Positions 8,740 to 54,469 of a stretch of DNA of 64,000 nucleotides are shown one piece after another. The number at the start of each line of letters is the position of its first letter. Position 1 is the first letter of the stretch. Source of the DNA: Clostridiaceae bacterium JG1575 (GTDB taxonomy: Bacteria > Bacillota > Clostridia > Clostridiales > Clostridiaceae); assembly GCA_002838815.1 (NCBI GenBank), contig LQGW01000031.1, positions 1 through 64,000 of the forward strand. The letters run 5' to 3'. Below the pieces are notes generated by a model, which saw only the letters and a list, made by a program, of their open reading frames with translations, did no database searches and was not told the origin of the DNA. The position numbers and the translations under genes were made by a program.

Positions 8740-8815
8740 TGGTCGGAGTGACAAGACTTGAACTTGCGACCTTTAGACCCCCAGTCTAACGCGCTACCAC
8801 CTGCGCTACACCCCG
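8740..8815 (-). tRNA. tRNA-Pro (anticodon GGG)
   Basis: A 76-nt cloverleaf. Acceptor stem CGGGGTG/CACTCCG (one G-U), D arm GCGC..GCGC, anticodon stem TTAGA/TCTAA with loop CTGGGGG (anticodon GGG), T arm with loop TTCAAGT, discriminator A and an encoded CCA end. GGG reads CCC and CCU proline codons. Confidence 0.95.
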
Positions 8816-10365: not shown

Positions 10366-10529
10366 AATTGGAACTCCTTTTTTGAGGTCTTTTCGTCCAA
10401 AGACGCTCTGCACCAATAAATCATGTCCCCACTATAACATTGACCCCGCATGATTTCGACCATTAATGGCAAACTCTTCCCCTCATTTCCACGGTTTTGC
10501 CGCACCTTGAGCCAAAAGATGCTTGCCCG

Positions 10530-11030
10530 TTACGTGGGCACCACAATCGCTCTTGGGGGATGGCCGCTCTCTTTCAAGAGCTTCACTAGGTCTTGGTACT
10601 TCAACCAAATCGTTGCCGTATTGTCCAAAGGGTGCACGCCGATGAATTCTCGGCGGGTCAATTCCTGATCCACCAGGACCTCCACCGTTCCTTGAACATC
10701 ATGGAATACCGCCAAGGGGCTGACCGCGCCTGGCGTCACCCCAAGACGCTCCATCAAGTAGTCTTCTCGGGCAAAGGAGAGCCGTGTGGAGCCAATGGCT
10801 TCCCGCAAAGACCCCATATTTATGGTCTTGTCTTTGCGAAGAACCACCAAATACCAATGCTTTTTCTTCTCATCGCGCAAAAAGGCGTTTTTTGCCACAT
10901 CGGAAAATTCTTCCTCACTCATGATTTTTGCCATGTCCTCCATGGTCCAAACCGGTGGATGATCCAGTACCTTGAAGGGGATGTGTTTCTCGTTCAAAAG
11001 TTCGTAGATCTCTTCTTTCTTATGGATCAT
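10530..11030 (-). CDS. proX: ProX-type prolyl-tRNA editing protein (Ala-tRNA-Pro deacylase)
   Basis: A 166-residue YbaK/ProX-fold protein that hydrolyses tRNA-Pro mischarged with alanine. Typical stretches are FKVLDHPPVWTMEDM near the start, KNAFLRDEKKKHWYLVVL (with the conserved lysine-rich patch), GVTPGAVSPLAVFHD and VHPLDNTATIWL. These match the ProX/PrdX group, not the Cys-tRNA deacylase group. AAAGGAG precedes the ATG at 11030. The editing-domain-free ProS in this window makes such a protein necessary for accuracy. Nothing besides promoter DNA lies in 10366-10529 and 11031-11360. Confidence 0.93.
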   Translation of the reverse strand: MIHKKEEIYELLNEKHIPFKVLDHPPVWTMEDMAKIMSEEEFSDVAKNAFLRDEKKKHWYLVVLRKDKTINMGSLREAIGSTRLSFAREDYLMERLGVTPGAVSPLAVFHDVQGTVEVLVDQELTRREFIGVHPLDNTATIWLKYQDLVKLLKESGHPPRAIVVPT

Positions 11031-13136: not shown

Positions 13137-14273
13137 TTAAGCCTTCAATAGGCTCTGGGGTTCTTGCGTCTTGTCGGCCGTGACGCCACGATGCTGATAC
13201 ATCGCGTCATAGTATGCCTCGTAGGCGCCGGAGGTGATGTGCTCCATCCAAGATAGGTTCTCAAGGTACCACTGAATGGTCCGCTCGATGCCTTGGTCAA
13301 AGCAGGTTTCAGGAAGCCAAGACAACTCCTGATGAATCTTTTGTGGTGAAATGGCATACCGCAGATCATGACCCGGGCGATCGGCGACGTAGCGGATGAG
13401 GCCCTCTGTGATGGTTTCGGCTCGGGGATCTCCCTCGGGCAGCGCCTCACGAACCTTTTGCAGGATGCTTTTCACAAGATCGATGTTGCGCAGTTCGTTA
13501 TGACCGCCGATGTTATAGACCTCCCCCAAGCGCCCTTCTCGGGACACTAAGTCAATGGCCTTGCAGTGATCCGCCACATAGAGCCAATCTCGGATGTTTT
13601 CTCCTTTTCCGTACACCGGAAGCGGCAAGCCCTTAAGGGCATTGTGGATCATGAGCGGAATGAGTTTTTCGGGGAATTGATAGGGCCCGTAGTTGTTGGA
13701 GCAGCGGGTGATGCAAAAGGGGAACCCATAGGTATCGCCGAAGGCTTTCACAAAGAGGTCGCTGGAGGCTTTGCTCGCACTGTAGGGGCTGTGGGGATCC
13801 AGCGGGGTGGTTTCGGTGAAGAAGGATCCATCATCCGCCAAGGAGCCATAGACTTCGTCCGTGGATACGTGGACAAAGCGCTTGCCGGCGGCGTAGGTCT
13901 TGGGGCCGACTTCCCAAGCCCTTTTGGCCGCCATCAACAGGTTGTAGGTGCCCAAGACGTTGGTGCGGATGAAGACTTCAGGATCCAAAATGGAACGGTC
14001 CACGTGACTCTCAGCGGCCATGTGCACCACAAGATCCACGTCGTAGGTTTCAAACATCCGGGCGACTTCCTTTGAGGAAGTGATGTCGCCTTTTTCGAAA
14101 CGGTAATTGGCGAGGTCTTCCACTTCTTTTAAATTCTCCAGGTTGCCGGCATAGGTCAACGCGTCAAAATTGATGATCTCTACTTGGTCTCCATAGGTTT
14201 CGATCAGGTAATGAATAAAGTTGGAGCCGATAAATCCCGCTCCTCCAGTCACTAAAATGGTTCGACAATCCAC
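13137..14273 (-). CDS. rfbB: dTDP-glucose 4,6-dehydratase
   Basis: Converts dTDP-glucose to dTDP-4-keto-6-deoxyglucose, the branch point for deoxysugars. An extended SDR of 378 residues: NAD-binding TGGAGFIGSN at 9-18, HMAAESHVDRS, the catalytic STDEVYG (137-143) and YSASK (Tyr 164, Lys 168), and NNYGPYQFPEKLIP. The start is a GTG at 14273 with AAAAGGAG at good distance; an ATG 24 bases upstream sits on that site. It is the last gene of the minus-strand glycan operon, 92 bases behind the second EamA-like gene, and shares its direction with no gene in between. The first committed gene, rmlA, is at the other end of the operon. Confidence 0.96.
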   Translation of the reverse strand: MDCRTILVTGGAGFIGSNFIHYLIETYGDQVEIINFDALTYAGNLENLKEVEDLANYRFEKGDITSSKEVARMFETYDVDLVVHMAAESHVDRSILDPEVFIRTNVLGTYNLLMAAKRAWEVGPKTYAAGKRFVHVSTDEVYGSLADDGSFFTETTPLDPHSPYSASKASSDLFVKAFGDTYGFPFCITRCSNNYGPYQFPEKLIPLMIHNALKGLPLPVYGKGENIRDWLYVADHCKAIDLVSREGRLGEVYNIGGHNELRNIDLVKSILQKVREALPEGDPRAETITEGLIRYVADRPGHDLRYAISPQKIHQELSWLPETCFDQGIERTIQWYLENLSWMEHITSGAYEAYYDAMYQHRGVTADKTQEPQSLLKA

Positions 14274-14365
14274 GATTCTTTCTCCTTTTGAGCTCAACTC
14301 GAGCTGGTGGGGTTCGCCTCCGGAACCTCGGGCAATTCCCTCTTAGGTCTAGGGAGGCGCGGCTT

Positions 14366-14710
14366 TTAATAGCCGTGAGAAATGACAATGCCCGCAACGA
14401 TCAGGGCTGCGCCCAGAAGCTTTTTGGCGCCAAGGCGCTCGCCGAAAATCATGCGGCTAAAGAGGGTGACAAATACATAGCTTGACGAAGTCAAGATGGG
14501 GCCGATCTTATAGGAAAGGTGCTGATAGGCCAGGATGTTCAGGCCCATGGTGAGTCCCAAAAGAGCATAGCCCGAGAGCACCCAGGGGTTGATGAATTCC
14601 TCGATGAAGGTGTTTCGCCGTCGGTTGGCGCTTTTTTTGAGCAACACCTGAGAGAGGGCCGCTAAAAAGGCCGCGGCAATCATTACGGCAGCTGCGCTGG
14701 ATTCAGTCAT
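14366..14710 (-). CDS. EamA/SMR-like four-helix membrane protein, second subunit
   Basis: A 114-residue protein with four hydrophobic segments (for example MIAAAFLAALSQVLL at 10-24 and AALIVAGIVIS at the end), the size of SMR and ArnE/ArnF proteins. It contains ALLGLTMGLNILAYQHLSYKIGP and the SRMIFGERLGAKKLLG pattern seen in DMT-superfamily half transporters. It overlaps the neighbouring EamA-like gene by 8 bases (ATGACTGA). Pairs of such small proteins act together as flippases for undecaprenyl-phosphate-linked sugars in the Arn pathway (ArnE/ArnF). I infer the same task here from the context of a GT2 and a GT-C gene. Confidence 0.85.
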   Translation of the reverse strand: MTESSAAAVMIAAAFLAALSQVLLKKSANRRRNTFIEEFINPWVLSGYALLGLTMGLNILAYQHLSYKIGPILTSSSYVFVTLFSRMIFGERLGAKKLLGAALIVAGIVISHGY

Positions 14711-15086
14711 GGCGCGTCACCAAAATAATCCCCGCAATCAACACCATCAGCCCGATCCCTTGATTCCATGTGAGTTCCTCTTGAAAGAGGAACATAGACC
14801 ACAAAAGGGTCCAAAAAAGGCCGAACCCCTTATGAATGTAGGCGATGGAGAGGTCGGTTTCTTTGAGAACCCCCTGCCAGACCACGGCATAGAGTCCGAG
14901 AAACAAAACAAGGAGCGCTACATGCGCGATAAATAGAGGTGCTCGAGGCCCTTGCACTGAGAGCACCATCGCCGATCGCTTGGAGAGGACGCTGACAATG
15001 GAATATAAAAACACCGCCAGCTGAATTTTGCCGACTTCCTTAAAGTTTACGGAACGCCGGGCGGCTTTTAAGCATTCTTTTTCCAT
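14703..15086 (-). CDS. EamA/SMR-like four-helix membrane protein, first subunit
   Basis: A 127-residue protein with about 15 polar N-terminal residues and then four hydrophobic segments: IQLAVFLYSIVSVLSKRSA, then FIAHVALLVLFLGLYAVVW, then the segment with ETDLSIAYIHKGFGLFWT, and IGLMVLIAGIILVT. DMT-type LFQEELTWNQ comes before the last helix. It begins 3 bases after the stop of the SH3 gene, with only a modest GAGGG site, so translation is probably coupled. The two half-size subunits differ clearly in sequence, pointing to a heterodimer. Expected role is flipping the lipid-linked sugar made by the GT2 protein. Multidrug export, the other SMR function, is less likely in this context. Confidence 0.85.
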   Translation of the reverse strand: MEKECLKAARRSVNFKEVGKIQLAVFLYSIVSVLSKRSAMVLSVQGPRAPLFIAHVALLVLFLGLYAVVWQGVLKETDLSIAYIHKGFGLFWTLLWSMFLFQEELTWNQGIGLMVLIAGIILVTRHD

Positions 15087-15089
15087 CCG

Positions 15090-15644
15090 CTACTGCCCTC
15101 GAAGGTATTGGGACGCCACATAGCCCAACTGATCCTTGTAGCGAATCAAGGACCAATCCGCCCCTTTTTGCACCAACTGCACCGTGGAGCTGCGCGGCAC
15201 TGTGGCCAAAATGTCTCCGTCCACCGGACGCTTACGTACGGGCAGATTCACTGTGGTTTTTACCTTATCGCCGTCGCCCGGACCCAAGAGCTTCGCGGCC
15301 ACAAAGCACTCCATTCCGCCGGTGCGAATTTTCGCCCAAGACCCCACCTGGCCGATTTTCTCCACCGAGGCCCCCTTTTCTAGGTGCATAAATGGGGCTT
15401 CCGACATCTGAGGCTCCCGGCGCAAAGGACTCCTTACCAGCACCCGGTGCACGTCCTGAACGATGGGGTCGGAGAGGTGCCCTTGGCTTTTGTACCACTG
15501 GGCCACATTCAAAAAGATGGACAGCAAGGTGATGACGCTTAAGAGGAGTACCAGCACTGAAGGCATGGCAACCCCCTCCGGCGCGGGGGACGATGGCTTG
15601 GTCCGCGGGGGCTTCTTTTCTGATTCATTGTGTTCTTGGATCAT
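15090..15644 (-). CDS. Membrane-anchored protein with two bacterial SH3-like domains
   Basis: 184 residues: a basic cytoplasmic start rich in Pro, Lys and Ser (1-26), one membrane segment (about 27-48, PSVLVLLLSVITLLSIFLNV), then an outside part with two SH3b-like units. The first (about 85-122) has MHLEKGASVEKIGQVGSWAKI, the second (about 130-184) has VNLPVRKRPVDGDILATVP and WSLIRYKDQLGYVASQYL. Such domains often bind peptidoglycan peptides. GAAAGGAG precedes the ATG. It is within the glycan operon, 3 bases behind the SDR gene and 3 bases ahead of the first EamA-like gene. It might position the glycosylation machinery at the wall; this is inference. Confidence 0.85.
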   Translation of the reverse strand: MIQEHNESEKKPPRTKPSSPAPEGVAMPSVLVLLLSVITLLSIFLNVAQWYKSQGHLSDPIVQDVHRVLVRSPLRREPQMSEAPFMHLEKGASVEKIGQVGSWAKIRTGGMECFVAAKLLGPGDGDKVKTTVNLPVRKRPVDGDILATVPRSSTVQLVQKGADWSLIRYKDQLGYVASQYLRGQ

Positions 15645-15647
15645 GGG

Positions 15648-16526
15648 TTATGCTCCTTTCGCCGCCCAGTGGGCTCGAATTTCTCCCAAGGCCTCCTCCA
15701 GGCTGTAGCGCGGGGAAAACCCCCAGTCCCGGTGGATTTTTTCCACTTGCATCTCACATACCGATGCGTCCTCCATGGGGTAGGGAATCTTTTGGAGCGG
15801 GGCGGGGTTTTCAAAGACCCGATTGATGGTGTCGGCCAGCGCGCGAATGCTGATGCGCCCAGGCATCCCGACGTTGTAGATCCCTTGATCTTTGGGATGC
15901 TCAAGGGCCGTCTTGAAGGCGAGAGCCGCATCCTTCACATAGAGGTACTGCCGCTCCCCCACCCCTTCTCCATATAACGTCAAGGGCTGCTGTTGTTGCG
16001 CCGTCTCCATGAAGGTGTTTAATAGATACCCTTTGCGTTCGTTTTCCCCCAGCACTTGAGCCAGGCGCAGGGATTTAAAACAAGTGCCCTGCGTTTGGTT
16101 TAGATGCATCAGGTAGTCATCGGCCATTTTTTTGGACAACCCATAAAGATTCTTGGGGGTGGCCACGTCCTTTTCGCAATAGGGGCAGCGGGACGAGCCT
16201 TGGTAGACGCCGATGGAGGAGGCAAACACCGCATTGGATACTTTGGCGGCGCAAAGCAGTGCCACCGTCTTGACCACCAGGTCCAGATTGGCTAAAAGCT
16301 CCTTTTGGCTAAAGGCCGCCCCGAAGCGGACGCCACTGAGGTGGACGGCCCCCATGCACTCCTTCAACTCCGCCACGAGCGCCTCCTCATCAAATAGCGA
16401 GCGCATCTTCGGCCCCTGGGGGGTCCGGCTCACCACCACCGCTTCAAAGCCATCGGCCTCAAGGCATTCTTGGAGCGCGCCGCCTAAAAAGCCCGTGCCG
16501 CCAAAGATCATAACTTTTGGATGCAT
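15648..16526 (-). CDS. NAD(P)-dependent sugar epimerase/reductase-like SDR
   Basis: A 292-residue extended SDR: GGTGFLGGAL at 9-18 binds the nucleotide, SSIGVYQG carries the serine region, and YGLSK holds Tyr 128 and Lys 132. It also has a small Cys pair (CPYC at 114-117) that I do not recall as a family feature. AAGGAGG precedes the ATG; the gene overlaps the ATP-grasp gene by 19 bases. Its exact reaction cannot be read from sequence. A C-4 keto reduction, a C-5 or C-3 epimerisation of the dTDP sugar, or a later modification are all possible. With the aminotransferase present, a tailoring step on the amino sugar is the likelier choice. Confidence 0.85.
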   Translation of the reverse strand: MHPKVMIFGGTGFLGGALQECLEADGFEAVVVSRTPQGPKMRSLFDEEALVAELKECMGAVHLSGVRFGAAFSQKELLANLDLVVKTVALLCAAKVSNAVFASSIGVYQGSSRCPYCEKDVATPKNLYGLSKKMADDYLMHLNQTQGTCFKSLRLAQVLGENERKGYLLNTFMETAQQQQPLTLYGEGVGERQYLYVKDAALAFKTALEHPKDQGIYNVGMPGRISIRALADTINRVFENPAPLQKIPYPMEDASVCEMQVEKIHRDWGFSPRYSLEEALGEIRAHWAAKGA

Positions 16527-17653
16527 GGCGCCTCCTTATGCAATGCTTCGATGAGGTAGCCGCATTTTTCCATATGCCCGTTCAAGGGCCTGACGAGGTC
16601 CCCCGTTTGGTAGTAACAGCGCTTGTAATACTCGCTGCCACTGGTCTTAAGGGTGGCCTCTTGCACCAACGTCTTGGGCGGTTGGCAAAGAAAGCGCAGC
16701 GCCAAAGGCTCCTTGGGCTCCTTTGGGCTCGGAAAAACCGGCGCTGTTCCCTGCAATAGGTGTTCCAAGGACGCTTCCAACAAATCCACCCCATCGTAGT
16801 GCTTTAAGAGATTCCACATGTGACAGCCATCCAGGCGAGGCGTGATTTCGATGAAGAAGGGTTCTTCCCCTGCCTCGAGGATGATCTGAAAATAAGCGGG
16901 GCCGTTTAGGATCTCAAGACGCCGCAGAGCTTCTTGGGCCCGATGAGCCAAGCGCTTAGACACCTTCGGCGTCTCAAAGCGCGAGGGCACCCAGTGTTCC
17001 TTAATGATGCCCCCGGGCAGATCGTCAAAACTGATGCGATCCGAGAGCCTTAAATAGACCATCTCTCCCGCCACCATGTAAGCATTCAAAGAAACCTCGG
17101 GGCCCTGGATAAAGCGCTCCACAATGAGCTGCCCCGAGCGGGAGTGGGTCATGGCTTCGGCAAAGTGAGCCTCTAGATCCTCTAGACTTTTACAGCAAAA
17201 GACGCCGCGCTGTCCTTGAGAATCCACCGGCTTCATCATCACAGGGAAGGATTGGACTCCCCGAAGCTCCTCAAGCGTTGAAACCAGCGTATAGGGAACG
17301 TTCCCGGGAAACTGGGGTCCTAACCGTTCACGGAATCGATGTTTGACGTTGCAGTCCTTCGCCGTCTGCGCTGAAATAAAATGCGGCAGCGCCAGACGCC
17401 TTGAGACCTCCATGGCCGTCGGCATGGCCAAATCCGACCCCACCGAATACACGCAGTCCACCTCCTTTTCCTTGGCATAAGCCGTAACTCCTTCCACATC
17501 CACAATATTGATGATGCGGAATTCATCCACCAAGGGGATGCAGCGGTCGGTATCCGTATAGCTGCACGCAAAGACCTGATGGCCCCGTTCTTTGCAGTAG
17601 GTAATGGCATCGTATTGAGCGTTTCCCGCTCCCAAGATCAATAGTCGCTTCAT
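16508..17653 (-). CDS. ATP-grasp ligase of the glycan operon
   Basis: A 381-residue ATP-grasp protein. An N-terminal Rossmann-like preATP domain (MKRLLILGAGNAQYDAI; about 1-100) is followed by the ATP-grasp core, with PVMMKPVDSQGQRGVFC, VERFIQGPEVSLNAYM and the Mg-binding EITPRLDGCHMW. The C-terminal 80 residues are of unclear fold. Enzymes of this fold join a carboxylate to an amine through an acyl phosphate. Next to a sugar 4-aminotransferase, it would be suited to attach an amino acid or other acid to the sugar amine, but the substrate cannot be derived from sequence. It overlaps the GT2 stop by 4 bases (ATGA) and has GAGGAG in front of its ATG. Confidence 0.88.
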   Translation of the reverse strand: MKRLLILGAGNAQYDAITYCKERGHQVFACSYTDTDRCIPLVDEFRIINIVDVEGVTAYAKEKEVDCVYSVGSDLAMPTAMEVSRRLALPHFISAQTAKDCNVKHRFRERLGPQFPGNVPYTLVSTLEELRGVQSFPVMMKPVDSQGQRGVFCCKSLEDLEAHFAEAMTHSRSGQLIVERFIQGPEVSLNAYMVAGEMVYLRLSDRISFDDLPGGIIKEHWVPSRFETPKVSKRLAHRAQEALRRLEILNGPAYFQIILEAGEEPFFIEITPRLDGCHMWNLLKHYDGVDLLEASLEHLLQGTAPVFPSPKEPKEPLALRFLCQPPKTLVQEATLKTSGSEYYKRCYYQTGDLVRPLNGHMEKCGYLIEALHKEAPCIQKL

Positions 17654-18594
17654 GAGGTTCTCCTCTTCAAAGGCAGGTCCTCACTGCGGACCACGGTTCG
17701 TTTGACCCCAGTGGGCGCTGCCGTAATAACTTTTAATATGCGTGAGGCATAAAGCCCCAAGAAACCGCCGACAAAAGCCACAAGGCCCAGCAGCAACAAC
17801 AAAAGACAAACCAGATAATAAAGGGAATGGTGTCCCCAAAAGGCCCCAAGAATTCCCCCGAGAAGCAACGCGCCAAAACTTACGCCAATGAAAAGAGCTC
17901 CGCCTTTTAATAACAGCAGCGCCGGCTTTTCCGTATAGTTGAGCGTTGCCGACCAAAGCTTGAGTGATTTTTTAAAGGTGTAGCCCGATTCCCCGCAGCA
18001 GCGTTCAAAATGCGCCACCGGCTGGTTCACTACATCCTTGGTCACTCGGACGAACGTTGCCTGAATGTCCGTAAATTCGGAACAATAGGTCACCATTTCC
18101 TCCACGACAAAGCGCCGAGCCGCCCAAAAGCTGGTCGCGACCCAAGGGTCCTTTTTGTCCAAAAACCAGCGGATCACCTGGTGGTGCACCCACGAAGTAC
18201 AGCGCTTTTTCAGCGAGTGGGAGGAATGGTCGTACCGGGCATAGACAACGTCATGCCCTTCGTTGAGTTTTTCCAAGAGTTTGCCAATCTGTGAGGGATG
18301 GGTTTGCAGATCGTCGTCCAAGTTGATGAATATTTCTCCGCTGCCCTCACGCAGCCCCATCAAGATGGCGTTGTGCTGCCCCATATTTTTGGCCAGGTCC
18401 AAGCCGAGGATCCTAGGATGGGTGCGAGCGATGCGGGTGATTTCGGCAAAGGTCTCGTCCGGGGATCCATCGTTGATGAGAATCAACTCGTAGTCCTCGA
18501 TGCCGAGCTTGGCCAAGGCTTCTTCCGTCTCCCGCACCGTATTCTCCAAGAAGGCGGCGGAACGGTAACAGGCCATGGTAATGGTATAAATCAT
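17650..18594 (-). CDS. GT2 polyprenyl-phosphate glycosyltransferase (GtrB/ArnC-like)
   Basis: 314 residues. The N-terminal GT-A domain has ILINDGSPDETF (about 38-49), a LAKNMGQHNAILMGLREG stretch and the DDD metal-binding triad at 93-95 (NLDDDLQTHP). Two C-terminal membrane helices follow (about 225-250 and 258-285). This is the layout of dolichol/undecaprenyl-phosphate sugar synthases such as ArnC, GtrB and DPM1. It should move the sugar from its nucleotide carrier to undecaprenyl phosphate at the inner membrane face. It overlaps the upstream GT-C gene by 4 bases (ATGA), so the two are translationally coupled, the expected pairing of donor-maker and user. Confidence 0.92.
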   Translation of the reverse strand: MIYTITMACYRSAAFLENTVRETEEALAKLGIEDYELILINDGSPDETFAEITRIARTHPRILGLDLAKNMGQHNAILMGLREGSGEIFINLDDDLQTHPSQIGKLLEKLNEGHDVVYARYDHSSHSLKKRCTSWVHHQVIRWFLDKKDPWVATSFWAARRFVVEEMVTYCSEFTDIQATFVRVTKDVVNQPVAHFERCCGESGYTFKKSLKLWSATLNYTEKPALLLLKGGALFIGVSFGALLLGGILGAFWGHHSLYYLVCLLLLLLGLVAFVGGFLGLYASRILKVITAAPTGVKRTVVRSEDLPLKRRTS

Positions 18595-20489
18595 TGAGTG
18601 CCTCCCTTAGGGGCGTGGTAGACCCGAAAATAATCGTTTTGATACGTTTCAATATATCGGTTCTCTTTTAAGTAATCTTCAAGAACCGTTCGTTTTTGAG
18701 CATAGGCCCGGGTGGTTTCCCGCAGCAGTAATTCCTCATAGTTGCCTTGTGCAAATCCATGATAAGGATCCGTGCGATTGACAATGATGAGGGGCAAGGG
18801 ACCTGCGCCCTCTTTTTTGTGGGCAAGGTCTTGCACAAATTCACTCGTCAGATAGGAATACACCGTAATCCAAGGATGGACATAGGCTTCCTTGCCCGTG
18901 AGGACGTAGAAAAGGACGCTGTTGCCAAAAACCATCAGGGTTTTTGGGTATTGCGGATGCTCCTTGATGTGATCCACTACACCTTGCAGCGCCTGTGCCT
19001 CTCGCACCGTCGTGCGGACGCCGCGCACCATGGGCGCCTGGACCGTCGCCGTAAGGGCGAAGGGATTGGCGTCATCGTACATGTTGATGGTTGCCATATG
19101 AAAAAGCAACGGACCGGTGAGGCTCAGGCAAAGCACAACGGCCAAGAGCCTGCGACCTCTTTGAAGGTGCAACGGATAGGCAAACACGACGTGTGGCCCG
19201 ATGCCCTTTCGGGCCACACCGCCGATGAAAAAGAAAAACAGCGGCAAGAGGATCCAGGTGCCCATGATGGTGTGGCGAAGCCGCGCCGCGGAGCCCACAA
19301 AGCTTAAAAAAAGGACAAAGGTTCCCAAAAAAGCCAAAAGCATGCTTCGATGCTCGGGATCCCGGCGCCCGCGAAGACTTTGCACGATCTCATTGAGAGC
19401 CGTGCAAAGGAGCGCCCCGTGCAGCAACCAGTTGAAGCCCGTCATGCTGGCCCAATTTTTCGGAAATACACCGAAAAAGTACGTGAACAGCACCAAAAAC
19501 AGCCCTACTAAAAAAATCCAAAGCGCACGGATCCCATAGGCCAGCCATCGCTTGCCCTTAAGGAGCGAATGCTCTGACCAAAGGGTGCCCACCAAAGAGA
19601 AAAAGAAGATCCCGAAGGCCAACAGCATGCCGTAGGCCGTATCCGCGACCAGGTATTTTATCATACGGGTCACCGAGTAGAGATTGGACCCTCCCGTACC
19701 GCCCAACACCTTTAGGCGAAGGGCCTCCTGCGCGATGCGCTGGTTCACGCCAAGCAAGGCATACCCCCCCGCCATGCAAAGAAGGCATAAAGCAACGCCG
19801 CCGACAAACGAGAGGCCGATGCCCCAAAGGGTCCGCCCCTTGAAGCGGCACCCTTTGGCAAACAGCACGCAAAAAGGCAGGTAGAGTAAGCCAAGGATGC
19901 TGGTAATCCGCGCCAAAAGAGCCGCCCCAGCAAAAAGACCGGCGAGAAAGAACGTCCGATACGCCTTCCATTGCTTTTGAGGCCCTGGCGTTTGACACGA
20001 GGTGCCTGCGTCCTCCTTTGCCCTTTGGACCAAGAGGGCGTCAAAGCCGCGGTAGATCCACAATGCCGCGAAGACCTGAAGCACCATGTTGAACTGGTGA
20101 AAATTAAAAATTTTAATGTAGGTGGTGGTGAGGCACACCGAGCCTGCCGTGCCAAGAAGCGAGGCCTTTTCCCCCAGGGGCTTCTTCAGCGTATGATAAG
20201 TGAACAAGGCCAAAACAAGAATCAAGACGGCCTCCAAAAGCTGCAACCCCAAAAGCTCGAATCCCGGGAAAAGCCGCAGGAAGAACGCCCCCACCAAGGT
20301 GGAGAGGTAGGTGAAGAGGGACGCCTTAGGAGTTGTGGGATAACGATACCAGTAAAGGTAGCCCCCGGTGTCTGCAGTATCGAGCCCCAATACGCTGTAA
20401 AGCAGGGGAACAATAAAAATGACGGCCCATAATAAATAAGAGTACTTCGTCCATGGGGTTCTTTGTTTGCGCATTGCTCGTTTGATCAT
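18591..20489 (-). CDS. GT-C type multi-span glycosyltransferase (ArnT/GtrC-like role)
   Basis: A 632-residue integral membrane protein with about eleven predicted helices and a C-terminal outside domain of about 150 residues (from about 480). The first loop contains DTADTGGYLYWYRYP, an acidic pair after the first helix of the kind that serves as catalytic site in GT-C enzymes using polyprenyl-phosphate sugars. No closer family could be named; similarity to ArnT/PMT is in layout only. AAAAGGAAG precedes the ATG at 20489. It is coupled to the GT2 gene by an ATGA overlap. Predicted task is transfer of the flipped sugar to an extracytoplasmic acceptor. Confidence 0.8.
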   Translation of the reverse strand: MIKRAMRKQRTPWTKYSYLLWAVIFIVPLLYSVLGLDTADTGGYLYWYRYPTTPKASLFTYLSTLVGAFFLRLFPGFELLGLQLLEAVLILVLALFTYHTLKKPLGEKASLLGTAGSVCLTTTYIKIFNFHQFNMVLQVFAALWIYRGFDALLVQRAKEDAGTSCQTPGPQKQWKAYRTFFLAGLFAGAALLARITSILGLLYLPFCVLFAKGCRFKGRTLWGIGLSFVGGVALCLLCMAGGYALLGVNQRIAQEALRLKVLGGTGGSNLYSVTRMIKYLVADTAYGMLLAFGIFFFSLVGTLWSEHSLLKGKRWLAYGIRALWIFLVGLFLVLFTYFFGVFPKNWASMTGFNWLLHGALLCTALNEIVQSLRGRRDPEHRSMLLAFLGTFVLFLSFVGSAARLRHTIMGTWILLPLFFFFIGGVARKGIGPHVVFAYPLHLQRGRRLLAVVLCLSLTGPLLFHMATINMYDDANPFALTATVQAPMVRGVRTTVREAQALQGVVDHIKEHPQYPKTLMVFGNSVLFYVLTGKEAYVHPWITVYSYLTSEFVQDLAHKKEGAGPLPLIIVNRTDPYHGFAQGNYEELLLRETTRAYAQKRTVLEDYLKENRYIETYQNDYFRVYHAPKGGTQ

Positions 20490-20544
20490 CCGTTGCTTCC
20501 TTTTTCGTTTTCCTTTCGTCGCTTCATGGGACCGCGCCAGAGGC

Positions 20545-21690
20545 TTATCGGCGCCCCAAGATGTCTGTTATTTCGTGAACGATGCGCAAGGCGTCCGCCG
20601 GCTCCATCTGAGCATAAAGAGGCAGCCGCAGGGTTCTTGCGCCCAGATCCTCTGTGACGGGGCAGGAGCTTTCCCCTAAATTCAAGCCTAAAGGCGCCGA
20701 ATGCAGCGGCACATAGCAGATGTAGGTGCTGATGCCGCGCTCTTTGAGCTTTGACATGAGTTCATCCCGATCCTTGGGCGTGGGCAGCTGAATGTTGAAC
20801 ATATGCGCATTATGCGTGCAATACGCCGGCACCACCGGGCGCTTGAGCCACCTTTGCTCTTGTGCCTGCGCCAAGCCATCGTAATAGGTCTGCCAAACGG
20901 CCATGCGCCGATCAAAAATTTCCTCGTAGCGCTCGAGCTGAGCCGCCAAAAGAGCCGCCAAAAGATCCGAAGGCAAAAACGAAGATCCCACCCGGTGCCA
21001 CGTGTATTTGTCCACCAGTCCCTTGAGCACTTCCTTGCGATTGGTCCCCTTCTCGCGGATCATCTCGGCTTCCCGAAGATCCTCCTGCGTGGTGAATATG
21101 GCAGCCCCGCCCTCTCCCATGCAAAAGTTCTTGGTTTCATGGAAAGAGTAGCACCCCATGTGTCCCAACAGGCCGCAAGGTCGCCCCTTATAGGTGGACC
21201 CCACGCTTTGCGCCGCATCTTCAATGACCAAAAGCTGGTGCGCATCGGCCAGGGTGAGAATCGGATCCATGTCGCAGGGAATGCCCGCATAATCCACCGT
21301 CACAATAGCCTTGGTCTTGGGGGTGATCAGCGCTTCGATCTTTTTTTCGTCCAAATTCATCGTGTCGGGCCGTATGTCGCAGAACACGGGAACCGCGCCT
21401 CGAAGCATGAAGGCATTCACCGTGGAAGAGAAGGTAAAGGAAGGCGTAATGACTTCGTCTCCCGGCTCGATCTTCGCCACAAGAAACGCCAGTTCCAAGG
21501 CATCGGTACCGGAGCTCGTTAAAAGAAAGCGCTCAATGCCAAAGCGCCGGCGAAAGGCTTCCTCCACTTTATGGGTATAGGGACCATCCCCGGACAGACG
21601 GCTGCTTTTTAAAGCATCCAGAACATAGGCTTCTTCGAGGTCTGTGATCCAAGGCTTGTTGAAGGGAATGACGGAATTTATTTTCTGCAT
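20545..21690 (-). CDS. DegT/WecE-family dTDP-sugar 4-aminotransferase
   Basis: A 381-residue PLP enzyme. FNKPWITDLEEAYVLDAL and RLSGDGPYTHKVEE at the start match the WecE (RffA) group that makes dTDP-4-amino-4,6-dideoxy sugars. PSFTFSSTVNAF, the Asp of EDAAQ (158) and the PLP lysine in SFHETKN (Lys 187) are present. It overlaps the Gfo/Idh gene by 13 bases. In the operon the substrate would be the 4-keto sugar after 2-deoxygenation and 3-keto reduction, giving a 4-amino-2,4,6-trideoxyhexose. If it acted before the 2,3-dehydratase it would make the simple 4-amino-4,6-dideoxy sugar instead, leaving the dehydratase without its 4-keto substrate. The first order is therefore favoured. Confidence 0.93.
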   Translation of the reverse strand: MQKINSVIPFNKPWITDLEEAYVLDALKSSRLSGDGPYTHKVEEAFRRRFGIERFLLTSSGTDALELAFLVAKIEPGDEVITPSFTFSSTVNAFMLRGAVPVFCDIRPDTMNLDEKKIEALITPKTKAIVTVDYAGIPCDMDPILTLADAHQLLVIEDAAQSVGSTYKGRPCGLLGHMGCYSFHETKNFCMGEGGAAIFTTQEDLREAEMIREKGTNRKEVLKGLVDKYTWHRVGSSFLPSDLLAALLAAQLERYEEIFDRRMAVWQTYYDGLAQAQEQRWLKRPVVPAYCTHNAHMFNIQLPTPKDRDELMSKLKERGISTYICYVPLHSAPLGLNLGESSCPVTEDLGARTLRLPLYAQMEPADALRIVHEITDILGRR

Positions 21691-22658
21691 GGTTTGTTTC
21701 CTTTCGATGCGGCACGCAACTCATCCAAGAGCGCCTGCTGTCTTAAGAGGGTTTGGTGATGCTTCAAGCGAAGGGCCGGGGCGTCCATGAGGGTGCAAAA
21801 ATGCGCCAAGGATTGGGCAAAGGCGTTGTCCGCCCCAAGGCTCACTTCTTCTTGGCCTTTGGGGGATGAACTCACTGCCCGCGCCTCATGCTCTGGAGGA
21901 CTGGTATAAATGCGGTCCGTGGTCAAAAGAGCCCGGGCGCCGTGGAGCTCCAAAGTGCATTGGTAGGCGTTGTCCATGCCGTAAAAGCCTTGGAACAGCT
22001 CTCCCTTGGTCCCCGATAAGGTGAAGGTGCCATAGGTATCGACTCCGTACTGCGGATCCACGAAGGATTCCGCGCTGAGGACCTTGGGGTCTTCTAAAAG
22101 ATCCAATGCCGCCCGCGCAACGTAGCCTCCGGCGTCCAAAAGGGCGCCTCCTCCGAGATCTTTTTGATAGCGGAAATCATTGGGCCCCCGCTTGGGAAAG
22201 CAAAAGCTCGATCGAATCAGGCGAAGGGGCCCGGGCGCCAGATCTTGCCAAACTTGCTGAAGCTTGGTCCACTGGCGGTGGTATAAAAACATATAATTTT
22301 CATGGACGACCAGATTCTTTTTTTGAGCTCGTTTCAAAAGAATTCGAGCCTCCTCACCGTTCAAGGTCAGTGGTTTTTCCAAAAAAACGTGCTTGCCCGC
22401 TTCCAGCGCCGCCATGGCGGCTTCAAAATGAAGCGCTGGCGGCAGCGGAAGGTAGAGGGCGTCCACTTCGGGGTTGTCTATTAGAGATTCATAGCCCGTG
22501 GTTACGTGTAAGCCGAACTCCTTGGCCATAGCCAGGGAGCGCTCGCTTTCTTCGCGTACCGCCAGATGGCGGCAACGGACGTTGGGAACGTGTTCTAGAG
22601 CGGGCAAAAAGCGATTTTTCGCGATGCTGGCCGCTCCTAATATGCCAATTTCTATCAT
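21678..22658 (-). CDS. Gfo/Idh/MocA-family oxidoreductase, likely sugar 3-ketoreductase
   Basis: A 326-residue NAD(P)-dependent enzyme: Rossmann start IGILGAASIAKNRFLPAL, the family EKP motif (94-96) with Lys 95, and GGGALLDAGGYVARAAL with Tyr 179. This Lys/Tyr arrangement is the one used by deoxysugar C-3 ketoreductases of the KijD10/TylC1 group. These reduce the unstable 3,4-diketo-2,6-dideoxy product of a 2,3-dehydratase. The dehydratase gene lies directly upstream (10-base gap), which strongly supports this reading. GAAAGGG is before the ATG. Other Gfo/Idh sugar dehydrogenase functions cannot be excluded by sequence alone. Confidence 0.9.
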   Translation of the reverse strand: MIEIGILGAASIAKNRFLPALEHVPNVRCRHLAVREESERSLAMAKEFGLHVTTGYESLIDNPEVDALYLPLPPALHFEAAMAALEAGKHVFLEKPLTLNGEEARILLKRAQKKNLVVHENYMFLYHRQWTKLQQVWQDLAPGPLRLIRSSFCFPKRGPNDFRYQKDLGGGALLDAGGYVARAALDLLEDPKVLSAESFVDPQYGVDTYGTFTLSGTKGELFQGFYGMDNAYQCTLELHGARALLTTDRIYTSPPEHEARAVSSSPKGQEEVSLGADNAFAQSLAHFCTLMDAPALRLKHHQTLLRQQALLDELRAASKGNKPCRK

Positions 22659-22668
22659 TTTTTCCCTT

Positions 22669-24051
22669 TCACTTTGTAAAATCCAGGAGGGCCAAGAGAT
22701 TTCGCAGCTGAATGTTCAAGACGTTGTTGGCTTCCATAAGCCGAAGCAGGGTGTGATAATCCAGCCAAAGATAGGATGCGTCGCCGCCCACGAAAGACTG
22801 TAGGACGTCATAATCCCCCTCTAAAATGTAATTGAGGTTTTCTTCGTGGTAGAACCGTCCCCCCTCCTCGGAGAGCACCCGGCAAGCCAAGTGCGTTTTT
22901 TCATCCGCCATCAACTCCTGAAGATGAGCGGTGAGGGCTGTGGCTATGGGAACTTCACCGGCCTCCCACTGCGCCGTGGGCCCCCACTCGACGCTGTCAA
23001 AGGTTCCGGCCTCTTGAGACAGGTGCACTAAAAATACGAAGCGACCCTCCAAGCGGGCGCAAACCAAAATAAAACAGGCGCGCCCCTTGGCTGCAAAAAG
23101 CGGCTGGTGCCAATGGCGCACTTCTCGCCCTTCAATCTCAATTTCAAAAAAGCAGACTTCAAAGGGCGCGCCCTTTGGGTTGTAAATCCGCTCCGGTTCA
23201 ATGACCCATTGGTTGAGCTGTTGCAGCGGCACCAGCCTACGCCGCGCCGGAGCAAACATCTTTTGGTTGTTGAGGCAATGGAATGCTTCGTTTCGTTTGT
23301 TTCGCCCATCCCCTTTCATACTTTGGAAAAGGGGATCCCCTTCAAGGAACCCGCCCTCATCCGAAGGTCCAAACCCAAAGGGCAGGCCCGAGAGCACCGT
23401 GCGGGTATCCATGTTGACGATGTTGTCATAAGTGAGCAGCTCATGAATCTGCCCCAGGGTCATCCAGCGCCAATTGGCGTAAAGGGGAACCTCCTGCTTC
23501 GTCAGCACCACCATGTTTCGATTGCGCTTGCCTAAGAACCGGGCCGCCTGCTCGGATTGAATCTGATCGTAGAGAATTTCATGCTTACGCGCGTCGCGAA
23601 AAAATGAGAGGTATTTGGGCTGCGCCCCTCCATGCTTTTGGGTAAAGTTGCTCTTGGTCGCCTGCAGGGTCGGCGAGAGCTGTATTTTGTTGATGTTGCC
23701 CGGTTCAATTTTGGCCTGCATTAAAAAGTGCAATACGCCCCCGAAAAACCGACAAAGGATGCCCAAAAATCCAATTTCATCCTGGAGAAGAATCGGCTGA
23801 TCCACGAGGCAGTCTCCCAAATAGGCTTCCAACCCTGCCACCTGAAAAAAAGTGCCGCCGTCGTTGCGCAAAACGCCCGTTTCTTCGTCCAAAGACCATC
23901 CGCGACATTCGTTGAGGCTTTCCCGCTGGATCTTGACGTGGGTTTCTTCATTAAGGTCGTGGATCCATTGAAGAATCTCTGCTGTGGGGGCGCCTCGACC
24001 CACTCGATCCTGCCACGAAGCCATGAGGTCCCATTTTCTTGAAGAATTCAC
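22669..24051 (-). CDS. NDP-hexose 2,3-dehydratase
   Basis: A 460-residue protein of the EvaA/TylX3/OleV type, which removes the 2-hydroxyl of dTDP-4-keto-6-deoxyglucose. The family consists of two repeats. The first shows QAKIEPGN (112-119) and QLSPTLQATKSN (124-135), both hallmark stretches. The second (about 345-400) shows FEIEIEGREVRHWHQPLF and EAGTFDSVEWGPTAQ. Best known from antibiotic sugar pathways in actinomycetes, it is unusual in a Bacillota cell-surface operon. The start is a GTG at 24051 overlapping the rmlA stop by 4 bases (GTGA), with GGGAGGAAG in front. A complete pathway partner, the 3-ketoreductase, follows it. Confidence 0.93.
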   Translation of the reverse strand: MNSSRKWDLMASWQDRVGRGAPTAEILQWIHDLNEETHVKIQRESLNECRGWSLDEETGVLRNDGGTFFQVAGLEAYLGDCLVDQPILLQDEIGFLGILCRFFGGVLHFLMQAKIEPGNINKIQLSPTLQATKSNFTQKHGGAQPKYLSFFRDARKHEILYDQIQSEQAARFLGKRNRNMVVLTKQEVPLYANWRWMTLGQIHELLTYDNIVNMDTRTVLSGLPFGFGPSDEGGFLEGDPLFQSMKGDGRNKRNEAFHCLNNQKMFAPARRRLVPLQQLNQWVIEPERIYNPKGAPFEVCFFEIEIEGREVRHWHQPLFAAKGRACFILVCARLEGRFVFLVHLSQEAGTFDSVEWGPTAQWEAGEVPIATALTAHLQELMADEKTHLACRVLSEEGGRFYHEENLNYILEGDYDVLQSFVGGDASYLWLDYHTLLRLMEANNVLNIQLRNLLALLDFTK

Positions 24052-24986
24052 GAAAGGGCTTCCTCCCGCATCGGACGCTGCTCCCTGGCAATGCGCTCCA
24101 GATAATGCCCATACTCCGTATTTTTATGCTTTTGTGCAATGCCTTGAAGCGCTTTTGCCGTGATATATCCCAAGCGGTAACAAATCTCTTCAATGCAGGC
24201 GACGTAGAGGCCTTGGCGCTCCTGAATGGTCTGCACGTACTCCGCCGCAGCTAAAAGAGCCTTGGGGTTTCCGGTATCGAGCCAAGCCGTACCCCGCCCG
24301 ATGCGCTTGATGCGCAATTTTCCTTGACGCAAATATTCGTTATTCACCGCCGTGATTTCAAGCTCTCCACGAGCCGAAGGTTGAACCTTTTTGGCAATTT
24401 CAACGACCTGATTGTCGTAAAAGTAAATCCCCGGAACTGCATAATCGGACTTGGGTCGGGTCGGCTTTTCTTCGAGGGTCAAGACCCGTCCGTCCGGCGT
24501 GAAGCTAACTACTCCGTAGTCGGAAGGGTTGGTCACCCGATACCCGAAAATATAGGCCCCCTCTTTTAGTTGCGCCGCTTCTTGCAACGTATTCGCCCAG
24601 CCCTCGCCATGGAAGATGTTGTCCCCCAGGGCCAAGGCCACGGGGTGCTTCCCGATGAACGATTCACTGATGATGAAGGCCTCGGCCAGGCCTTTGGGCT
24701 CTTCTTGCACAAGATATTCAAAATGCACACCCAAATCACTGCCATCCCCCAGATGCTGACGAAACAAGTCCAAATGCATGGGCGTGGAAATGATGAGGAT
24801 GTCCCGAATGCCCGCCAGTAAGAGATTCGACAGCGAGTAGTAGATCATGGGTTTGTCGTAAATGTTGAGGATTTGTTTGGAAATGGCCTTGGTCAAGGGA
24901 TACAGGCGCGTGCCCATCCCTCCCGCTAAAACGATGCCCTTCATCGCTTGGGGGAACTCCTCAGACTGTTTGTTGTTCTTTTTCAT
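24048..24986 (-). CDS. rmlA: Glucose-1-phosphate thymidylyltransferase
   Basis: Makes dTDP-glucose from glucose-1-phosphate and dTTP. 312 residues with the nucleotidyl-transfer signature GIVLAGGMGTRLYPLTKAIS, DKPMIYYSLSNLLLAGI, LALGDNIFHGEGW and EEKPTRPKSDYAVPGIYFYD. The usual length is about 290; the extra 14 N-terminal residues depend on the start at 24986, which has ACGGAGG. An internal ATG at residue 15 would give the standard length, but its upstream site is poorer. First gene of the glycan operon, coupled to the 2,3-dehydratase by a 4-base overlap. rmlC and rmlD, needed for rhamnose, are not in the operon. Confidence 0.96.
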   Translation of the reverse strand: MKKNNKQSEEFPQAMKGIVLAGGMGTRLYPLTKAISKQILNIYDKPMIYYSLSNLLLAGIRDILIISTPMHLDLFRQHLGDGSDLGVHFEYLVQEEPKGLAEAFIISESFIGKHPVALALGDNIFHGEGWANTLQEAAQLKEGAYIFGYRVTNPSDYGVVSFTPDGRVLTLEEKPTRPKSDYAVPGIYFYDNQVVEIAKKVQPSARGELEITAVNNEYLRQGKLRIKRIGRGTAWLDTGNPKALLAAAEYVQTIQERQGLYVACIEEICYRLGYITAKALQGIAQKHKNTEYGHYLERIAREQRPMREEALS

Positions 24987-26060
24987 AATTGAACCTCCGT
25001 CTTAGAAATACTTGTTGCGATCGGTCGTAAAACCCATCGCCCCCTCTTCGCGTCGCATCCGGACTATTGCTCCTCCCCCAACGGGCCCCGCTCAATAACA
25101 GCACCTCCCCGACCCAGCGGCCTAAAGATGCCTTTTTTGAGCTGGCAGGGGCCCCTTTCTTTCGCTCTTTTGGTGATTCTCAGCTCATCAGATGCTACAA
25201 AGAACCCTTGGCCTAACTTAACATGACCATGGTTTTTCCTTATTGAATAAGCAAAGAATCTCCTTTCATACGAAAGAAAAATTCCATCTTTAAAAACAAA
25301 TGCCACGACCTTATATAACCCTTTCCTCATTTGATAATAGCTTTTTCTCATTTATAACTTCAGCGTGTTTTTTCTTCATTTAAATTGGCTATTTATCTGA
25401 TAAAAGGACTTTTTCATTTTTCCTCGCTAAAACCCTTTAAAAATAGGTCTTTAACCGTTTTTATCGGAAGTTTTTTCCCTTATCGTTGTTTCAACAATAG
25501 TAGGGCCCTAAAGAAAATGAACCGTGGTGAACGCTACTCAAGAAGGGATTTCTTTGAATATTCGTCATAATAAGAGGGCTATCCCTCATTTTTTGTCGAT
25601 ATTTCCGCCAAAATCTGCTCTTTAAGTGATTTTTCTTTGCTTTTTTCCAGGGGATCGCCTCAGAAGCTGCCTCAGCGACGAAAAATCAATCCGAGACTTC
25701 TGAAGTTCTATTTTGAAACGCTCTCCAGGGACTTGTAGGTCTTTAGCATATGTTTTTATTATGTAGTTATCATACGCACCCTCTATCGGCTCAATCAATA
25801 GGCAAAGGTTTAGTTTTTAGTTTTTTTATGATTTTATGCATTTCGATTCCTTTTTAGAGGATGTATCGACGATTTATTGACTGTAACCCTTTGCTTTGCG
25901 GAAATGCCGCATTGAGTCCCCCTGAGGATACTTTTGATTCAATGGTTATTTCAGACCTTCAAAGGCGATAATCAATCGTTCTAAAACTTTGTCTATCTCT
26001 CTAAGGAATTCCTTTTCTTAAAACAACCCCAAAAAAACAGAAAGCGCCCACAAAGCCCAC
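24987..26060. other. Gene-free AT-rich stretch upstream of the glycan operon
   Basis: About 1.07 kb without a gene I can support; open frames are short and lack ribosome sites. The part 25200-26000 is much richer in A and T than its surroundings, with many T-runs on the plus strand. It must contain the promoter of the glycan operon on the minus strand and perhaps a long leader. The best -10 guess, read on the minus strand, is TATATA near 25310-25316, without a clear -35. No riboswitch or T-box pattern was recognised. Confidence 0.5.
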
Positions 26061-26108
26061 GGACCGTACCTTCCCTTTTTCAGGGCTCCCTGAAACGGTA
26101 CTTGGTCC
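26061..26108. repeat. Nested inverted repeat overlapping the amidohydrolase promoter
   Basis: Outer arms GGACCGTACC (26061-26070) and GGTACTTGGTCC (26097-26108) pair with a 2-base bulge. The inner arms TTTCAGGG (26078-26085) and CCCTGAAA (26088-26095) are perfect. The right arm contains the -35-like TTGGTC. It could be an operator or a terminator of transcription from the left. Confidence 0.6.
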
Positions 26109-26131
26109 TTTTCCGACACAGGGCTTATAAT
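26102..26131 (+). promoter_or_regulatory. Promoter of the M20 amidohydrolase gene
   Basis: TTGGTC (26102-26107), 18-base spacer, perfect TATAAT (26126-26131), 35 bases before the start codon. Confidence 0.6.
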
Positions 26132-26165
26132 AACTACAGTTAAAGCACCGCCCGGGAGAACCCTT

Positions 26166-54267: not shown

Positions 54268-54469
54268 CAACGAATTCCTCCTCATGGGATATGTTTTGGA
54301 CAACCCCATTGTCCTCAATCATTGTTAACTCCCCTTTGCCTCCATGTTAGATCCCGGCAAAGAAAGGATCGACGGCTCCGGTTTTCTTGCAAAAAAAAAA
54401 CGATTCGCTCCCCCTTGATGCCCAAAGAGGAGACGAAGCGCTGATTTTATTTGACAGGTTGACCCGGCA

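Follow-up and report, generated by a model that had tools for sequence, protein, structure and literature searches.

A clostridial operon predicted to make and export a 2-deoxy amino sugar, probably as a branch of a wider Bacillota cassette

Background

In the enterobacterial common antigen, the sugar Fuc4N of the WecE branch goes into an undecaprenyl diphosphate repeat unit, SpnO/SpnN/SpnR and KijD10 are enzymes of antibiotic deoxysugar pathways, and PgfS/PgfM carries out protein O-glycosylation in Streptococcus. The subject of this work is an operon of twelve genes in Clostridiaceae bacterium JG1575, found in a stretch of 64,000 nucleotides (positions 1 to 64,000 of contig LQGW01000031.1, assembly GCA_002838815.1; this whole stretch is called the window), which we compare with these pathways, with the Arn system and with the Gram-positive multi-component systems. 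The latter (CsbB/GtcA/YfhO, GtlA/GtcA/GtlB, GacI/GacK/GacL) join a membrane-linked family 2 glycosyltransferase (GT2), a flippase and a polytopic transferase, one of whose outer loops bears an acidic motif; their sugars are GlcNAc, Gal and Glc and their flippases are of the GtrA or Wzx type, and the part of the source used here mentions neither SMR nor EamA proteins as flippase types (PMC8035078). An exporter of the SMR family has been proposed for mycobacterial arabinose (PMC11127046).

The operon likewise encodes candidates for a GT2, a flippase and a polytopic transferase, but its predicted donor is a 2-deoxy amino sugar made by the operon itself, its flippase would be a pair of SMR proteins and it has an additional ATP-grasp ligase. 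Polytopic transferases of the multi-component systems have the GT-C fold, 8-13 helices and the acidic motif in an outer loop; the corresponding protein of the window has 9-11 helices and the pair D37/D40, and its fold is a proposal. The genome has four genes with the PF00535 domain, three of which belong to the window and to two pairs of GT2 and YfhO genes elsewhere (L125:2361-6706 and L126:3361-6589; one YfhO is fused to GtrA). Since these two are gene sets of the classical Gram-positive kind, the operon would be a third, with a different flippase type. No GtrA gene (PF04138) is found among the twelve. An earlier reading of the window, made from the sequence only, had overlooked that Gram-positive systems of this general kind are already described (PMC8035078).

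The likeness to Arn lies in the aminotransferase, the ArnC-like GT2, the paired ArnE/F-like SMR proteins and the polytopic protein, and it supports the Arn-like division of labour that the sequence-only reading had proposed. That reading had also credited the operon with every functional counterpart of Arn, which does not hold, because neither an ArnA decarboxylase/formyltransferase nor an ArnD deformylase is among the twelve genes (the rest of the genome was not searched for them) and it proved impossible to demonstrate a GT-C fold for the membrane protein. In contrast to the UDP-pentose of Arn the operon would use a dTDP-hexose, and an ATP-grasp ligase stands in place of ArnA/ArnD. None of the Arn models reached its cut-off (ArnC 118.3 bits against 529, ArnE 37.6 against 92, ArnF 22 against 99), and LpxC had no match in the genome, the same search being positive in 4 of 14 control genomes, which supports the Gram-positive-type surface assumed earlier. 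Membership in Arn was therefore rejected: the operon would function in the manner of Arn and of the Gram-positive multi-component systems without belonging to Arn.

With the antibiotic deoxysugar pathways (EvaA) the operon shares a 4,6-dehydratase, a 2,3-dehydratase, a 3-ketoreductase and a 4-aminotransferase that would act in sequence, but the sugar is apparently exported on a lipid instead of being placed on a natural-product scaffold, and no 3-deoxygenase or N-methyltransferase is among the twelve genes. The enterobacterial common antigen has the aminotransferase family in common with the operon, which adds a 2-deoxy step and a GT2 of the undecaprenyl phosphate type. In the open-licence literature, searched by title and abstract, we found no system of this make-up, as had been claimed before, and no description of a WecE/ATP-grasp/GT2 cassette or of a Gram-positive wall system that includes a 2,3-dehydratase.

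Results and Discussion

A wider WecE cassette

Judged by the gene sets compared here, the operon is probably the 2-deoxy branch of a cassette found more widely in the phylum, WecE-(GT-C)-GT2-ATP-grasp-(SMR). A search of 398 genomes of the phylum at E 1e-90 or better yielded 25 WecE, the window's own included. The best other match, in L133 (61% identity), lies in a dehydratase locus, although the dehydratase played no part in finding it; identities to the WecE of the window are 42-50% for the remaining 23. In a tree of 41 rows, the WecE of the window, on a long branch (0.65), and 11 dehydratase-linked WecE, that of L133 among them, form one clade with support 100/100, and the 23 other WecE of the phylum fall outside it. 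The sister of this clade (join 95/96) consists of nine WecE from loci without dehydratase; six hand-picked distant DegT aminotransferases of dehydratase loci lie outside both WecE groups. The dehydratase was not found within about 1.5 kb of any of the 23 outside WecE, nor, for 22 of them, up to about 10 kb on each side, contig ends allowing.

Apart from L140, the 24 other WecE loci were then opened to 13-20 kb, which gave 23 loci for comparison. A GT2 is present in 20 and an ATP-grasp in 19, at least one SMR gene in 8 and an SMR pair in 4, a member of the window's GT-C family in 6 and a dehydratase in 1. The order WecE-GTC-GT2-ATP-grasp of the window is found in five loci, L172-L176, with an opposite-strand gene inserted between GT-C and GT2 in L172; four of the five show one or two SMR genes next, and L176 stops at the contig edge. 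A membrane protein of 517-537 amino acids (aa) with PMT_2 above the cut-off lies on the opposite strand in L160 and L161. The search for the same gene order in other genomes, suggested by the sequence-only reading, was thus rewarded. What that reading had missed is that the gene set recurs elsewhere and that the export genes are common to loci without 2,3-dehydratase, and it is for this reason that the operon reads as a 2-deoxy version of the wider cassette. The main new point is this recurring cassette, of which the operon is probably the 2-deoxy branch, and whose ATP-grasp had been left without a role.

The twelve genes and the predicted sugar

The genes are co-directional, all on the minus strand from 24986 down to 13137, with intergenic gaps of -19 to +68 bp. 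The earlier list is borne out in its coordinates and, by curated models, in its families; the strand had gone unstated. From the first gene to the last, they are:

24048..24986, minus strand: RmlA, glucose-1-phosphate thymidylyltransferase (TIGR01207, 427.9 bits, cut-off 360.65)
22669..24051, minus strand: EvaA-type dTDP-hexose 2,3-dehydratase (PF03559, 374.9 bits, cut-off 25; PDB 4j7g, E 2.9e-71)
21678..22658, minus strand: Gfo/Idh sugar 3-ketoreductase (Gfo/Idh, 85.2 bits, cut-off 24; PDB 3rbv, E 3.3e-46)
20545..21690, minus strand: WecE-type pyridoxal phosphate 4-aminotransferase (NF008687, 491.5, cut-off 375; TIGR02379, 457.2, cut-off 434.85)
18591..20489, minus strand: GT-C-like polytopic membrane protein, proposed glycosyltransferase, 632 aa (homologs beside WecE; D37/D40)
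17650..18594, minus strand: GT2, proposed polyprenyl-phosphate sugar synthase, ArnC/PgfS-like, 314 aa (PF00535, 79.8 bits, cut-off 23.3)
16508..17653, minus strand: ATP-grasp ligase, proposed to form an amide at the 4-amino group (PF13535, ATP-grasp_4, 33.7 bits, cut-off 27)
15648..16526, minus strand: extended short-chain dehydrogenase/reductase (SDR), candidate 4-ketoreductase, epimerase or side-chain reductase (PF01370, 97.5 bits, cut-off 20.9)
15090..15644, minus strand: membrane-anchored SH3_3 protein, possible wall docking factor (PF08239, 48.2 bits, cut-off 27, two stretches)
14703..15086, minus strand: SMR1, proposed ArnE/F-like flippase subunit (best NCBIfam ArnE, 27.3 bits, cut-off 92)
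14366..14710, minus strand: SMR2, proposed ArnE/F-like flippase subunit (best NCBIfam ArnE, 37.6 bits, cut-off 92)
13137..14297, minus strand: RmlB, dTDP-glucose 4,6-dehydratase (TIGR01181, 475.6 bits, cut-off 365.1; start codon TTG, start position uncertain)

RmlA, RmlB, the dehydratase, the 3-ketoreductase and WecE make up a complete predicted route to dTDP-4-amino-2,4,6-trideoxyhexose, the sugar also named in the sequence-only reading. RmlA and RmlB would give dTDP-4-keto-6-deoxyglucose, the EvaA-type enzyme would strip the 2-hydroxyl, the Gfo/Idh reductase would reduce C3, and WecE would aminate C4 to give dTDP-4-amino-2,4,6-trideoxy-D-hexose; we infer every reaction from family and structure matches. 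The closest solved relative of the dehydratase, by PDB search, is EvaA, whose E139 and E190 align with E116 and E167 of the window enzyme (4j7g alignment, residues counted on the alignment). Both residues are kept in all of 8 sequences, and their mutation in EvaA abolishes activity (PMC8987622). The aminotransferase passes both curated NCBIfam cut-offs for WecE, and the orientation at C4 is probably galacto, as for WecE. The best PDB match of the Gfo/Idh enzyme, 3rbv, is titled 'Sugar 3-ketoreductase', and we take it to be KijD10.

The claim that rmlC and rmlD are absent was partly upheld. RmlC has no match across the whole draft genome (97.12% complete), and a D-sugar is therefore expected. 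RmlD was not searched genome-wide, and the SDR of the operon matches PF04321 (RmlD_sub_bind) above the cut-off (55.9 against 27), yet it stays under the NCBIfam cut-offs for RmlD and reaches no other NCBIfam cut-off. A rhamnose product was rejected on these two results for RmlC and the SDR.

The ATP-grasp ligase would couple a carboxylic or amino acid to the C4 amine. Its relatives in the PDB are 4dim and the L-amino acid ligase 3vot. After GT2 it is the steadiest partner of WecE, in the 19 of 23 loci counted above, and two or three ATP-grasps are present at L038, L039 and L070. Genes that could supply an acid accompany it elsewhere: a ketopantoate reductase-like gene at L038, an HMGL-like gene at L060, and PrpD, Ldh_2, HMGL-like, 2-hydroxyacid dehydrogenase and fumarase C genes at L096. 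Because the ATP-grasp recurs and acid-making genes accompany it, an amidated amine is the likelier state, the simplest view being that an acid particular to each locus is probably joined to the 4-amine. An amino acid as acyl group would leave a further amine.

Proposed lipid loading, flipping and transfer

The GT2 would load the sugar onto undecaprenyl phosphate. Its best NCBIfam models, ArnC (118.3 bits, as given above) and PgfS (92.2 bits, cut-off 500), are both far below their cut-offs; two C-terminal helices are predicted by hydropathy and the DDD motif is invariant in 6 sequences. It should be noted that helix counts, and the lysine/arginine bias used below, come from a simple hydropathy rule made for this analysis.

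For the flippase, the sequence-only reading had named two half-size EamA/SMR proteins; the second passes the EamA model (35.2, cut-off 28.2) and the first falls just under it (27.1). Adjacent SMR genes are mostly opposite in Arg/Lys bias, and lipid-type SMR proteins are often without the central glutamate (PMC9574504). SMR1 and SMR2 are adjacent and opposite in bias (+4 and -8), and they lack a central glutamate in helix 1. Opposite bias was seen in 9 of 9 SMR pairs examined, the pair of L157 in a separate test, and in 16 aligned SMR subunits, judged by eye, the core of helix 1 is free of acidic residues. The two proteins may form an antiparallel heterodimer that would flip the lipid-linked sugar outward.

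The 632-aa membrane protein would then pass the sugar to a surface polymer or protein. It has no Pfam, NCBIfam or PDB match, and the eleven helices first attributed to it are recovered at one hydropathy threshold, nine at another. An acidic pair after the first helix, D37 and D40, is invariant in 7 sequences, and helix topology and acidic pair together are compatible with the proposal of a GT-C enzyme. In a profile search its homologs were found in six genomes, next to WecE in five of them and one gene away from it in the other (cluster match, 96.7% probability), and a hidden Markov model of these six, with the window protein excluded, recovers the window protein at E 1.3e-31 among the open reading frames (ORFs) of the window. 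Direct searches with the protein had found it in its own genome only, both in 58 relatives and in 391 genomes of the class; one weak extra match in the 398 phylum genomes proved to be a Wzy_C/TPR protein and was discarded. These direct searches gave false negatives, since the six homolog genomes surfaced only later by profile: one of them, G079, had scored no match in the 398-genome search, and the other five were also not among its two matches. An alignment of the GT-C candidates of the loci has 15-18% identity and one invariant column. Among viral contigs no relative of this protein or of the 2,3-dehydratase was found. The SH3 protein, with one predicted helix at residues 30-48, may anchor the machinery at the wall.

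Distribution of the dehydratase loci

PF03559 occurs in 9 of 391 genomes of the class and in 3 of 225 of the order, the own genome counted in both; two other genomes of the genus that were searched (one 87% complete) have no match. A scan of named genomes gave 358 dehydratase loci, and the counts that follow are from the best 80 of the 358. A WecE at 55% identity or more is present in 10 of these. Of these 10 loci, 6 have an ATP-grasp, 4 an SMR pair and 6 a close GT2; the corresponding numbers among the 70 other loci are 2, 0 and 7. RmlA (4 of the 10, 29 of the 70) and RmlB (2 of the 10, 28 of the 70) show no such enrichment with WecE. Neither these comparisons nor those of the 23 opened loci with the 70 correct for relatedness, and GT2 were called at a threshold of 1e-15 in one set and of 1e-20 in the other. 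Fuller gene sets are carried by Massilimicrobiota sp. An134 (L038) and a Candidatus Stoquefichus metagenome-assembled genome (L070); L060 is filed as a Bacteroides metagenome-assembled genome.

A 3-ketoreductase was called in 61 of the 70 loci that have no close WecE. In L053, L061, L067, L092, L107 and L112 the dehydratase and the 3-ketoreductase adjoin a close ArnC-like GT2, again without a close WecE. These six loci possibly make lipid-linked 2,6-dideoxyhexoses.

Weighing the interpretations

We consider it likely that the operon serves a single unusual sugar, from its synthesis and modification to its export and attachment, as the 2-deoxy branch of the wider cassette. Several observations weigh against this reading. 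For the membrane protein, an AlphaFold model without alignment has a mean pLDDT (predicted local distance difference test) of 44, too poor to show a GT-C fold, and a profile of 7 homologs found no glycosyltransferase in the PDB, giving chance matches only. PMT_2 matches appear in 3 of 4 homologs tested, all below the cut-off, and the family profile reaches the cluster holding the genome's own YfhO proteins with an hhalign probability of just 60%. The large membrane proteins of the dehydratase-linked loci L038 and L070 are unrelated to it by single-sequence hhalign. In L177 a GtrA gene (68.1 bits) lies between WecE and GT-C, where other loci have SMR genes. No ATP-grasp is seen in 4 of the 10 loci with dehydratase and WecE, two of which (L111, L114) are short contigs and two (L059, L094) are not, and the ATP-grasp of the window shares just 18-24% identity with its counterparts at other dehydratase loci. 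Moreover, 12 of the 20 GT2 of the opened loci, L172-L176 included, have only 245-287 aa, which leaves no room for the two C-terminal helices of the window enzyme, so that they may work differently there, although a glycosyltransferase and a separate membrane protein can stand in for a membrane-linked one (PMC8035078). Finally, an ABC transporter of the NMT1 type lies downstream in several loci of the wider set, whether they have SMR genes or not, and this suggests another use. The NMT1 lipoprotein was confirmed in L158, L161, L172 and L175, all loci without 2,3-dehydratase in which the transporter follows WecE-GT2-ATP-grasp, and L173 gave no match; permease and ATPase were confirmed for L161 and the permease for L172, the remainder being judged by eye.

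Other explanations of the operon concern the state of the amine and the place where the sugar goes. The sequence-only reading had suggested neutralisation of charge, in which the amine is left uncapped and the sugar, like Ara4N on lipid A, makes an anionic wall polymer more positive. WecE does yield an amine, the nearest NCBIfam relative of the SMR pair is ArnE, and an aminoacyl group from the ATP-grasp might itself be cationic; but the recurring ATP-grasp and the acid-making genes at L038, L060 and L096 make a capped amine likelier, and there is no regulator gene among the twelve. The probable amidation thus weakens charge neutralisation, and we regard a free amine as unlikely. About as doubtful is a protein O-glycosylation system, as PgfS/PgfM, instead of a wall-polymer system: PgfS is the second-best model of the GT2, but the operon has no obvious target protein, and the SH3 protein and the nearby LytR-CpsA-Psr (LCP) gene suit the wall equally.

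If the SDR were a 4-ketoreductase, the operon could make two sugars, a 2,6-dideoxyhexose as well as the amino sugar. Of the 61 dehydratase loci in which a 3-ketoreductase was called and a close WecE is lacking, 30 do have an SDR within the three genes that follow the 3-ketoreductase, but the other 31 have none there (a distant DegT aminotransferase lies there in 9 of the 61), and the SDR of the window comes after the ATP-grasp and has a BLAST identity of about 21-29% to those SDRs, so that two products seem somewhat less probable still than a free amine. That the sugar decorates a secreted small molecule, as in antibiotic clusters, could be thought of because the characterised 2,3-dehydratases belong to antibiotic pathways (PMC8987622) and EvaA is the closest solved relative. 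However, the twelve genes include neither a GT1 nor an assembly-line gene, and the set of GT2, flippase and polytopic protein argues for a lipid-linked donor; this explanation is very improbable and was rejected.

Genomic setting

The GC content of the single genes, 0.50-0.58 against 0.534 for the window, gives no clear sign of recent transfer. A promoter scan found 5 sites against 8.3 in shuffles, and 26 terminators against 19.4. Upstream of rmlA, at 25000-26150, about 1.1 kb is AT-rich (GC 0.40 against 0.53) and without a recognised gene; it holds one ORF of 95 aa with no Pfam match. The LCP gene lies at 8914-10416, with two genes between it and the operon, and a metallophosphatase (purple acid phosphatase N-domain) with CWB2 wall-binding repeats at 51598-54318. 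CWB2 repeats are tied to anionic wall polymer, and both genes are compatible with a monoderm having such a polymer. A tRNA-Pro (8740-8815) and a protein with an aminoacyl-tRNA editing domain (10530-11030) lie 1.7 kb apart.

Conclusions

Beyond the operon itself, the recurring loci may represent a widespread and previously undescribed counterpart of Arn in Bacillota, of which the window would be the 2-deoxy branch with its own aminotransferase clade. It would comprise a WecE-type 4-amino sugar, locus-specific acyl or aminoacyl groups, added by ATP-grasp ligases, undecaprenyl phosphate as carrier, flipping that is often by an antiparallel SMR heterodimer, and attachment outside. The short GT2 of the wider loci lower the odds of this broader proposal, for which we would put the chances at slightly under even. 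If the interpretation is true, Gram-positive extracellular glycosylation would be extended by the donor chemistry of a 2-deoxy, N-acylated amino sugar, by a type of flippase and by a ligase step, and WecE-GT2-ATP-grasp, with or without an SMR pair, would be a signature useful for annotation. A surface epitope would also be predicted, open to direct detection.

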